Of a stretch of DNA of 64,000 nt, positions 5,725 to 9,398 are shown one piece after another. The notes under the pieces were generated by a model that was given only the letters and a program-made list of their open reading frames with translations, was not told the DNA's origin and did not search any database. Numbering within the stretch: the first letter of the stretch is position 1; every line of letters begins with the position of its first letter. A program made the position numbers and the translations under genes. The stretch is from Bacillus bingmayongensis (GTDB taxonomy: Bacteria > Bacillota > Bacilli > Bacillales > Bacillaceae_G): positions 24,637 to 88,636 of the forward strand of contig NZ_JH921521.1 of assembly GCF_000299035.1 (NCBI RefSeq). Direction: 5' to 3'.

Positions 5725-6633
5725 TTGAAAATTGCAATTTCTGGGGGAACTGGTTTTATCGGTAATGCATTAGCAAATTTTTTAAGCCTAAAAGGGGGCA
5801 CAATTTACATTCTTACCCGGAAAGAAAGAGAGAATCCTCTCAATTCTAACATTCAATACGTCCAATGGGATACGCACTCTCCTAACTTCCCTCTCACTTC
5901 TATTGATGTTGTTATTAATCTAGCCGGAGAATCTATTAACAATGGTCGATGGACAAAAAAGCAAAAAGAAAGAATTATAGTGAGTCGTCTTCATACAACA
6001 AATAGTCTCATTAAACAATTACAAACATTACAAAAGAAACCCCATACTTTTATAAACGCTAGCGCAATTGGCTATTACGGTACATCTGAAACAAAAATCT
6101 TTACCGAACAGAACAAAGAAAATGGCAGTGACTTTTTGGCAACCACAGTAAAACTATGGGAAGAAGCGGCCGCTCATGCAACTTCTCTCGGAATTCGAAC
6201 TGTCTATACACGCTTTGGAATTGTTTTAGGAAAAGAGGGTGGTGCCCTTCCTAAAATGTTGCACCCCTATCAATTATTTATTGGTGGTACAATCGGCTCA
6301 GGCAATCAATGGCTATCTTGGATTCATCTAGATGATGTCATCCGCATGATTGATTTTGCAATAGACACAAAAGAAATAGAAGGACCTCTTAACATTACAG
6401 CGCCAAATCCTACAACAATGAAAGAGTTTGGAAAGACACTTTCAATTATCATGCGCCGCCCACATTGGCTTCCCGTTCCAGCCCTTGCACTACATGCTTT
6501 ACTGGGAGAAATGAGTATGCTTGTACTACAAGGACAACATGTATTGCCTAACAAAGCAATGCAGCATGGATACCAATATTCTTTTCCCACATTAAAGCAT
6601 GCATTACAAAATATTATATTGCATACACTGTAG
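5725..6633 (+). CDS. yfhF: TIGR01777-type NAD-dependent epimerase YfhF
   Basis: 302-aa short-chain dehydrogenase-like protein. The start is TTG at 5725 behind GAGGAGGAA, giving LKIAISGGTGFIGNALANFL with the Rossmann glycine motif GGTGFIG at residues 7-13. Downstream are NLAGESINNGRWT and SAIGYYG, both typical of the TIGR01777/SulA-like family, whose substrate is unknown. Probably cytoplasmic. Divergent from recX as in B. subtilis. Confidence 0.9.
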   Translation: MKIAISGGTGFIGNALANFLSLKGGTIYILTRKERENPLNSNIQYVQWDTHSPNFPLTSIDVVINLAGESINNGRWTKKQKERIIVSRLHTTNSLIKQLQTLQKKPHTFINASAIGYYGTSETKIFTEQNKENGSDFLATTVKLWEEAAAHATSLGIRTVYTRFGIVLGKEGGALPKMLHPYQLFIGGTIGSGNQWLSWIHLDDVIRMIDFAIDTKEIEGPLNITAPNPTTMKEFGKTLSIIMRRPHWLPVPALALHALLGEMSMLVLQGQHVLPNKAMQHGYQYSFPTLKHALQNIILHTL

Positions 6634-6709
6634 TACTTCTAAAATACACCCATTAATATTGCTCTATTTACTAATTCAAAGGTTATTAGCCAATGGAAAT
6701 GAGGTATTT

Positions 6710-7840
6710 ATGAAAACGCTATTTAAGCAAGCCATTGTATATCCCATTACTTCTTCCAAATTTCAAGGAGATGTATTGGTTAAGCACAATCAAATCGCTG
6801 CGATAAAACCACATATTGAGTCAACTCAAGATATGACTGTTATTGATGCAAAAGCCCTTCACCTTTTACCAGGATTTATCGATGTGCATACTCATCTTGG
6901 CCTATATGATGAAGGTACTGGTTGGGCTGGAAATGACGCTAATGAAACATCTGAAGTATTGACACCACATATCCGTTCTTTAGATGGTATCCATCCTTTT
7001 GATATTGCTTTTCAAGATGCGGTTCAAAGTGGGATTACAACTGCACATGTTATGCCCGGAAGTCAAAATATTATCGGCGGGACAACATGTGTGATTAAAA
7101 CCGCTGGAACCTGTATCGATCACATGATTATTCAGGAACCTGCAGGATTAAAAATTGCATTTGGAGAAAATCCAAAACGAGTTCATAGTAATGGTACAAA
7201 GGAATCAATTACTCGTATGGGAATTATGGGATTGCTTCGTGAATCTTTTTACGAAGCACAACATTATGGAAATGAAGCAGATTTTCGAATGCTCCCTATT
7301 CTAAAAGCACTGCGCCGGGAAATCCCAGTACGTATCCACGCTCATCGGGCAGATGATATTCTTTCCGCTCTTCGCTTTGCAAAAGAATTCAATCTTGATT
7401 TACGTATTGAACACTGCACAGAAGGACACTTTATTGTAAACGAGCTTGCCAATCAACACTTAAAAATATCTGTTGGCCCGACATTAACACGCCGATCAAA
7501 AATTGAACTAAAAAATAAATCATGGGATACGTACCATACTTTATCAAAGCATGGGATAGAAGTCTCTATCACAACAGACCACCCCTATACTCCAATTCAA
7601 TATTTAAATGTTTGTGCAGCCATCGCTGTCAGGGAAGGATTAGATGAAAAAATTGCATTAGAAGGAATTACAATCCTCCCTGCTCGAAACTTACGTTTAG
7701 AGAAAAGAATTGGAAGTATTGAAGTCGGAAAAGATGCCGATCTTGTATTATGGACACATCATCCATTTCATTATTTAGCCAAGCCCGTACTAACTATGAT
7801 TGACGGAAAAATAATTTACAAAAAAAATAAAAAAAACTAG
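6710..7840 (+). CDS. Amidohydrolase (imidazolonepropionase-like)
   Basis: 376-aa metal-dependent amidohydrolase. ATG at 6710 follows AATGAGGT; the upstream in-frame ATG at 6599 overlaps yfhF and has no ribosome site. Metal ligands of the TIM-barrel fold are visible: HTH in LLPGFIDVHTHLGL (about 59-61), HAH in VRIHAHRADD, H in RIEHCTEGH and D in SITTDHPYTP. The C-terminal IGSIEVGKDADLVLW closes the beta-sandwich. The substrate cannot be read from the sequence; cyclic amides such as imidazolonepropionate or dipeptide-like compounds are possible. It follows yfhF by 76 bp with no clear terminator between. Confidence 0.88.
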   Translation: MKTLFKQAIVYPITSSKFQGDVLVKHNQIAAIKPHIESTQDMTVIDAKALHLLPGFIDVHTHLGLYDEGTGWAGNDANETSEVLTPHIRSLDGIHPFDIAFQDAVQSGITTAHVMPGSQNIIGGTTCVIKTAGTCIDHMIIQEPAGLKIAFGENPKRVHSNGTKESITRMGIMGLLRESFYEAQHYGNEADFRMLPILKALRREIPVRIHAHRADDILSALRFAKEFNLDLRIEHCTEGHFIVNELANQHLKISVGPTLTRRSKIELKNKSWDTYHTLSKHGIEVSITTDHPYTPIQYLNVCAAIAVREGLDEKIALEGITILPARNLRLEKRIGSIEVGKDADLVLWTHHPFHYLAKPVLTMIDGKIIYKKNKKN

Positions 7841-7849
7841 TTTATTTTT

Positions 7850-7879
7850 TTGACTAGATAAAGTATTATACGATTATAA
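7850..7879 (+). promoter_or_regulatory. Candidate sigma-A promoter for the tRNA-like leader
   Basis: TTGACT at 7850-7855 and TTATAA at 7874-7879 with an 18-bp spacer. Transcription would start near 7886, about 45 nt before the tRNA-like fold. The -10 is imperfect. Confidence 0.45.
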
Positions 7880-7932
7880 ACTGAATGAAACCATAATCAA
7901 TTTGTGTCGTGATTATTCATTTCAAATTGATG

Positions 7933-8003
7933 AATGGGGAAGGCAAATGGTGCGCCACCAGCGTTATAGACTGGTTCTAGTGGGTTCGATTCCCACCCCG
8001 AAA
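7933..8003 (+). ncRNA. Degenerate tRNA-like element (pseudo-tRNA)
   Basis: The sequence folds as a tRNA cloverleaf. D stem GGC/GCC (7942-7944, 7954-7956) encloses a 9-nt loop with GG. Anticodon stem CCAG/CTGG (7958-7961, 7971-7974) carries loop GTTATAG, so the nominal anticodon is TAT. The variable loop is 5 nt. The T arm is perfect: GTGGG-TTCGATT-CCCAC (7980-7996). The acceptor is poor: only the inner three G-C pairs and one T-A pair form, 5' strand 7933-7939 with 3' strand 7997-8003, and no CCA follows. It therefore looks like a tRNA-derived RNA rather than a translating tRNA. A pseudo-tRNA called tRNA-Other is described in B. cereus (lysylated in stationary phase, affecting antibiotic resistance); this may be the same locus, but I cannot confirm it. 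Confidence 0.65.
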
Positions 8004-8048
8004 TTTTTTAAAGATTGATATAAAAATTTCGAGGGTGGGGTGTTTTTT
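7991..8048 (+). terminator. Strong terminator overlapping the tRNA-like T arm
   Basis: The 5' arm 7992-8008 pairs with the 3' arm 8022-8039 over 17 base pairs with one bulged A (8032), plus a wobble at 7991/8040. The loop is 13 nt and a six-T run follows at 8043-8048. The 5' arm includes the 3' half of the T stem and the whole 3' acceptor strand of the tRNA-like element, so both structures cannot exist together. It ends 33 bp before the acetyltransferase start, in the position of an attenuator. Confidence 0.85.
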
Positions 8049-8081
8049 CGTCATGCTACCCTCATGTGAGGAGGAGTTAGT

Positions 8082-8639
8082 ATGTTAAAAAAACGCGACT
8101 TACACGACAGCCACGTTCTATACGATTTAATGGTGGATCCTGCTGTCTTCCCTTTTGTGCGTCAAAAGGCTTATTCATATGAAGAGTTTTTGTTTTTAAC
8201 AAAACAAACAATAGAAGCTGAAGAGCGTGGTGAATTAATTTCACGCACAATTCTAGATGAATGGGGAAACCCTATCGGCACGATTACTTTATTTGATGTG
8301 CAAGAAAAAGCTGGGTTTCTTGGCACATGGCTTGGAAAACCTTATCATGGCCAGGGGTATAATAAATTAGCAAAAGATGCTTTTTTCAGCGAGCTTTTCT
8401 ATGAGTTAGATATTGAAACAATCTTTATGCGCATTCGCAAAGTAAATATTCGTTCGATGAAAGCAGCGGAAAAATTGTCATATGTAAACCTAGCAAATGA
8501 AACTAGAAAAGCTGTTTATGATCAAATTAACGCAAATGAGGAAGTATATAATTTATATGAGATTGTTAAAGATCAATATACACTTGCTACAATGCGTGAC
8601 ACTACATTCCAAGATACACATCATTTAAAAGAAGCGTAA
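8082..8639 (+). CDS. GNAT family N-acetyltransferase (RimJ/RimL-like)
   Basis: 185-aa acetyl-CoA-dependent acetyltransferase. ATG at 8082 follows GAGGAGG by 8 nt. The fold markers are an early beta strand PIGTITLFDV, a CoA-binding turn LGKPYHGQGYNKLA (Q/RxxGxG/A region, about 84-97) and the late helix NIRSMKAAEKL typical of RimJ/RimL relatives. RimJ/RimL enzymes acetylate ribosomal protein N-termini; relatives modify small amines, so the target is open. The gene lies directly behind the tRNA-like element and its terminator, which suggests conditional expression by readthrough. Confidence 0.85.
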   Translation: MLKKRDLHDSHVLYDLMVDPAVFPFVRQKAYSYEEFLFLTKQTIEAEERGELISRTILDEWGNPIGTITLFDVQEKAGFLGTWLGKPYHGQGYNKLAKDAFFSELFYELDIETIFMRIRKVNIRSMKAAEKLSYVNLANETRKAVYDQINANEEVYNLYEIVKDQYTLATMRDTTFQDTHHLKEA

Positions 8640-8887: not shown

Positions 8888-8934
8888 TTATCCCACATTA
8901 ACGGGCTTTTACCGCCCGTTAATGTGGGATAAGG
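8888..8934. repeat. Perfect 20-bp palindrome, bcr1-like foldback
   Basis: Arms 8888-8907 and 8915-8934 are perfectly complementary around the 7-nt loop TTTTACC. The right arm (GCCCGTTAATGTGGGATAAG) closely matches the 3' end of the bcr1 copy at 9378-9398, so this may be a deletion derivative of bcr1. It could also act as a terminator for yfhE, but no T-run follows. Confidence 0.75.
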
Positions 8935-9242: not shown

Positions 9243-9398
9243 ATAAAGTGAAACTTTAATCAGTGGGGGTTTTCTTCATCCCACCGATTATTAGCCTTCA
9301 CCAATCGGGCTTTTACGGGCAGTTGATCCCCCACCTAACTTCTTTACTTTTGCTGAATTTTGAGGTTGAGGTCTTACTGCCTGTTAATGCGGGATAAA
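9243..9398. repeat. bcr1-type repeat, copy A
   Basis: A 156-bp non-coding unit bounded by direct repeats ATAAA (9243-9247 and 9394-9398). It aligns along its length with 22927-23088 (shared blocks include CTTTAATCAGTGGG, GATTATTAGCC, CACCAATCGG and CTGAATTTTGAGGT). Length and short terminal repeats agree with bcr1, the roughly 155-bp mobile-like element of the B. cereus group. Confidence 0.75.

Follow-up and report, generated by a model that had tools for sequence, protein, structure and literature searches.

The window analysed here, the whole stretch of 64,000 nucleotides (64 kb), carries a recX-like gene (a label that we assume), a TIGR01777 oxidoreductase gene, an amidohydrolase gene (6599-7840), a leader, a GNAT acetyltransferase gene (8082-8639) and a YfhE-like gene. 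The leader holds a conserved RNA element, probably a switch, at 7937-8076 on the forward strand, 5' of the GNAT gene. Its parts and their surroundings are the following.

7850-7877, forward strand: probable promoter region, with the word GTATTATAC at 7863-7871; the transcript presumably starts 3' of this region
7937-7939, forward strand: 5' strand (GGG) of the acceptor-like helix P1, pairing with CCC at 7997-7999
7942-7956, forward strand: D-like arm, GGC-(AAATGGTGC)-GCC, with stem strands 7942-7944 and 7954-7956 and GG at 7949-7950
7957-7975, forward strand: anticodon-like arm, (A)CCAG...CTGG(T)
7980-7996, forward strand: T arm, GTGGG-TTCGATT-CCCAC
7992-8039, forward strand: alternative hairpin X:Y of 17 bp, 7992-8008 with 8022-8031 and 8033-8039, A8032 bulged, loop of 13 nt
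8031-8038, forward strand: segment Y (GAGGGTGG), common to the X:Y hairpin and the Y:Z helix
8043-8048, forward strand: T-run (T6), separated from the X:Y hairpin by GTG, a possible intrinsic terminator here
8056-8063, forward strand: segment Z (CTACCCTC), putative anti-Shine-Dalgarno, which would pair with Y (ON) or with the ribosome-binding site (OFF)
8068-8076, forward strand: Shine-Dalgarno GAGGAGGAG, recognized by sequence; the minimum-energy fold predicted for the window pairs it with the Z region
8082-8639, forward strand: GNAT acetyltransferase gene encoding 185 aa, which the switch presumably targets (Pfam, AlphaFold, synteny)

Of 147 distinct leaders, 60 have the motif GTAT[TGA]ATAC 5' of the core, where mononucleotide shuffles give 0.8, and in 56 of these 60 its spacing from the core is 40-89 nt. 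The consensus match TTGACT/GATTAT at 7850-7877 is by itself no evidence for a promoter, because the scan of 7700-8200 that includes it returned 3 sites against 1.9 in shuffles.

Comparison of the leaders supports a core built as a short four-way junction, whose D- and T-like arms may meet in a three-dimensional tRNA-like elbow. Across 86 members aligned with the covariance model R2, 99.9% of 1376 cells are paired, in an alignment that was fitted to the structure and so leans towards it, and both-side changes occur in six of the 16 core pairs (one in the D-like stem, three of five in the anticodon-like arm and two of five in the T arm), compared with a mean of 2.0 pairs in shuffles and 1-2 in slid structures. 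P1 lacks covariation because its GGG/CCC is invariant in 86/86; six of the 13 other pairs likewise never vary, and the 38 closer sequences alone show a both-side change in only one pair. The initial annotation had named compensatory changes in the D and anticodon stems among relatives as a point on which its proposal turned; the comparison did not refute it, both stems having both-side changes, the D-like stem thinly: it is paired in 100% of the 86 sequences, and one of its three pairs goes from G-C to A-U in two of them. The same annotation had described a perfect T arm and good D and anticodon arms on a poor acceptor, which agrees with the stems GTGGG/CCCAC, GGC/GCC and CCAG/CTGG and an acceptor-like GGG/CCC only. 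This stem of 3 bp is complete in itself in 105 of the 147 distinct leaders, with one further contiguous pair in 36, two in five and three in one, and no CCA end is found on its three conserved pairs. The core resembles a tRNA in having a D-loop GG and a T loop of the form TTCRANN, and both the GG and the entire loop TTCGATT are invariant in all 86 members. The anticodon-like loop differs between members in both sequence and length, with no conserved anticodon in the window or in 80 homologous loci, and A-A stands at the place of U8, a nucleotide that has a role in tRNA. The leader as a whole (7936-8099) folds better than its dinucleotide shuffles (z -3.83; none of 200 does as well), and the word GGGTTCGATTCCCACCCCG, with up to two mismatches allowed, is found once in the 64-kb window (0 expected). 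A near-palindrome, TGGTGCGCCACCA at 7948-7960, could give rise to a third hairpin, incompatible with the D- and anticodon-like arms; its pairing is kept at 99.8%, and both-side changes are absent.

Segment X is the 3' strand of the T stem, and the X:Y hairpin excludes both the T arm and P1. A tRNA-like fold locked against such a hairpin in front of the GNAT gene was the central proposal of the initial annotation, and it is borne out by sequence, conservation and both-side changes; the coordinates given there were correct to within a base, the hairpin ending at 8039 rather than 8040. Each of the outer eight pairs of X:Y is kept in 123-125 of 126 leaders, with A-T, T-A and G-T replacements; the hairpin is present in the minimum-energy fold by itself, and a segment complementary to Y and adjoining the Shine-Dalgarno is widespread among the leaders. 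By nearest-neighbour energies the T-stem 5' strand is unpaired in the favoured fold of 136 of 161 leaders, and the tRNA-like fold, being the less favoured one in these, would therefore have to be favoured by the order of synthesis, by tertiary contacts or by a ligand. A conserved core, mutually exclusive downstream helices and a varying expression platform, the general marks of a riboswitch, are all found here. Six leaders (L134, L140, L142, L175, L176 and L177) keep the tRNA-like core with another expression platform that is without the Y word, and in two of them, L134 and L140, a strand resembling CCCAC or ACCCGC lies 5' of the Shine-Dalgarno and could, judged by eye, pair with the T-stem 5' strand.

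The element was first sought beside the best 80 of 280 GNAT relatives (L001-L080), which were chosen by protein. Their identity over the best segment is 71-84%, and they include no B. cereus group species among their names; two that are named are Ectobacillus panaciterrae (L002) and Cytobacillus oceanisediminis (L023). The core, from AGGC to GTGGGTTCGA, lies just 5' of the gene in all 80 loci, and this conservation is the strongest evidence against chance. Model R1, used independently of the protein on a sample of 397 genomes from the order of G001, matched 304 of them; these matches rest on sequence and the D stem, the anticodon and T stems of R1 being set two columns off; when the 86 chosen members were rescored with R2, the corrected model, all were found again. 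R1 gave candidate matches in 35 of 398 genomes in the class sample (34 after removal of the false G515) and R2 in eight of 398 in the phylum sample (six after removal of two tRNAs). The G515 matches were rejected as three places in coding repeats, those of G795 and G812 as tRNA-Asn and tRNA-His, and four further model matches as tRNA-Gly, and second matches in G042 and G216 were set aside by their position on the opposite strand beside the element. Nearly every positive genome has one match; G076 has three.

Of 84 fetched loci (L086-L169, a set of best or selected matches that shares genomes with L001-L080 and contains the double entries L144 and L145), 83 have a GNAT gene just 3' of the element; the sole exception is L117, an extra copy in G076 without GNAT. 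The order sample holds 93 element-free genomes; 20 of them were tested for GNAT, which was absent at E<=1e-10 from 18, and in the other two a GNAT 51-52% identical is present with no element seen 5' of it by eye. The element and GNAT therefore largely travel together. The other neighbours vary: among L001-L080, some of which end short of the neighbours, the amidohydrolase is found in 69, YfhE in 39, recX in 38 and the oxidoreductase in 36 of 80. The three copies of G076 lie in L117, L143 and L170; that of L117 precedes a membrane-protein gene, presumably YebE/UPF0316-like, a relative of which also follows GNAT in L170.

We consider it likely that the leader is of the riboswitch type, with a tRNA-like sensor and an X/Y/Z relay that controls translation of GNAT. 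Conserved, mutually exclusive helices are supported by the comparison of sequences; that translation has a part, that a ligand acts and in which direction are inferred. Control is probably translational, the tRNA-like fold being ON and the long hairpin OFF. Stabilization of the tRNA-like fold would hold X in the T stem, leaving Y free to capture Z, so that the Shine-Dalgarno would be exposed and GNAT translated. If the core is not stabilized, X:Y, to which nearest-neighbour calculations give the lower energy in most leaders, would form, and Z could then cover the Shine-Dalgarno and turn translation off; in the window, where T6 follows, X:Y may terminate transcription as well. The leader would thus be an ON switch for whatever stabilizes its core. 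Our leading candidate for the stabilizer, put forward tentatively, is a small molecule that binds close to the A-rich junction, or else a signal of translation stress; the ribosome or a protein that binds the tRNA elbow comes next and is somewhat less probable. We judge the element to be a real class of cis-regulatory RNA, with helices that are well constrained by sequence.

Proteins could also control the element as an operator, with GNAT itself, RNase P, EF-Tu, a synthetase or the ribosome recognizing the tRNA mimic. E. coli ThrRS recognizes its own mRNA leader in this manner, the D-loop GG and T-loop TTCGATT that are invariant here form the elbow in tRNA, and the element keeps company with GNAT. 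The folded yjdF aptamer binds ribosomes (PMC9142559). However, the element is without CCA or anticodon and its acceptor is mostly of 3 bp, and binding would, in the proposed direction, turn the switch ON, so that self-binding by GNAT would amount to positive feedback; we regard such an operator as possible but rather unlikely. A transcription attenuator, in which a protein or ligand on the tRNA fold blocks a terminator, was the mechanism put forward in the initial annotation. It fits the window, where only 3 nt separate the 17-bp hairpin from T6, and few others: nine of 122 leaders (the window, L102, L109, L125, L127 and L129-L132) have TTTTT in the 20 nt that follow Y. As a general mechanism it is unlikely, because the other 113 are without such a run while the Y:Z partner is widespread; moreover, the terminator scan of the window, with a loop limit of 8, did not list X:Y, whose loop is 13 nt. 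Attenuation as the explanation of the element thus seems improbable, and a mixed mechanism of termination and translation is possible in the lineage of the window. More improbable still is a simple hairpin or stability element that senses nothing, which would account for the presence of X:Y in the minimum-energy fold by itself but not for invariant loops and junction or for mutually exclusive helices that share strands. A functionless decayed tRNA gene (a pseudo-tRNA, such as an attachment-site relic) can practically be dismissed, for although the T arm is one base of 17 off tRNA-Gly, tRNA-His and tRNA-Trp of G001, ARAGORN makes no call, and an element found in 304 of 397 genomes shows both-side changes in its tRNA-like helices and replacements in the alternative helix.

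Rfam 15 gave no match in the window at gathering scores, T-box included, and around the leader only weak matches, such as tRNA-Sec on the core (19 bits, E 2.3), with none to the T-box or yjdF models at E<=5. On five divergent relatives it gave a true FMN riboswitch elsewhere in L126, weak matches, and tmRNA T-arm fragments (12-15.5 bits) at the element in three of the five. The tRNA search that the initial annotation suggested as a check came out negative: ARAGORN lists no tRNA in the 64-kb window, and the 57 places found with RF00005 in G001 at E<=0.001 do not include the element. Without a 7-bp acceptor, a CCA end or a 7-nt anticodon loop with U33, and unmatched by tRNA models, it was rejected as a tRNA. 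T-boxes are fold-switching leaders that bind tRNA in trans, whereas here the leader itself is tRNA-like. The E. coli thrS operator, an mRNA leader that mimics anticodon arms for ThrRS, shares with the element the mimicry of tRNA parts but differs in that the anticodon-like loop is unconserved here and the gene is GNAT. Nor is the element tRNA-Other of Bacillus cereus, an identity also suggested at first: both are tRNA-like RNAs within a longer transcript, but tRNA-Other has a Trp (CCA) anticodon, lies behind a thioesterase gene and affects many genes (PMC3399842), whereas the element has no conserved anticodon and lies behind an amidohydrolase gene.

The closest working analogue is the yjdF (azaaromatic) riboswitch. 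It is translational, with a tRNA-like four-way junction, a D/T-loop elbow, a folded aptamer that is ON, part of the T arm used in the OFF fold, and an anticodon-like arm that is not essential for folding, and it is reported to control some acetyltransferases (PMC9142559). The two differ in sequence: RF01764 did not match at the element in any of 13 element-bearing genomes (E<=1), nor did R2 match a true yjdF (L214). The yjdF T-loop arm pairs directly with the Shine-Dalgarno and J1/2 is extended and purine-rich (PMC9142559), whereas here an X/Y/Z relay would intervene and the corresponding junction is AA. One genome (G063) carries the switch together with that true yjdF riboswitch, at a separate place (L214).

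The GNAT of the window matches Pfam Acetyltransf_3 (E 2e-12) and has a mean AlphaFold pLDDT of 91.3; at E<=0.01 it has no match among the NCBIfam families. When solved structures were searched with a profile built on 39 members, MccE came first (E 2.5e-7), and 20 of the 39 weakly match the GNAT part of an isoleucyl-tRNA synthetase family, the best at 6.5e-9 and all far below the whole-protein cut-off; Foldseek places SpeG and FdhC structures first, its top ten at 13-15% identity. From its sequence the protein is distantly related to MccE, which acetylates aminoacyl-nucleotides and, like RimL, inactivates aminoacyl-nucleotide inhibitors (PMC3817062). A link between this GNAT and aminoacyl-nucleotides or translation stress under a tRNA-shaped switch is only a lead, although, if true, it would make sense. 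That the leader mimics a tRNA elbow so that the translation machinery (a tRNA-handling protein, the ribosome or GNAT) decides on synthesis of an acetyltransferase acting on aminoacyl-nucleotides or aminoacyl-tRNA, as a second, independent class of tRNA-fold leaders, is a doubtful extension. The GNAT proteins frequently end in EA or QAM (window and alignment A4).

A description of the element was not found in the main texts of the open-licence literature, and within the literature searched it looks undescribed. tRNA-like folds acting as cis switches are rare, yjdF being the one well-studied bacterial case in that literature. If our reading is true, the element would be a second class, which the models used do not relate to yjdF and which, present in single copy, accompanies one gene in most of the genomes sampled from an order, and would make the tRNA elbow a recurrent sensor fold; the identity of its ligand would reveal what a widespread, uncharacterized acetyltransferase does.

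Further along the window, 3' of the YfhE-like gene, lies a perfect inverted repeat at 8891-8929 (TCCCACATTAACGGGC and its complement), a third copy of which occurs at 9379-9394 with two mismatches; it is perhaps a dispersed repeat or a two-way terminator.
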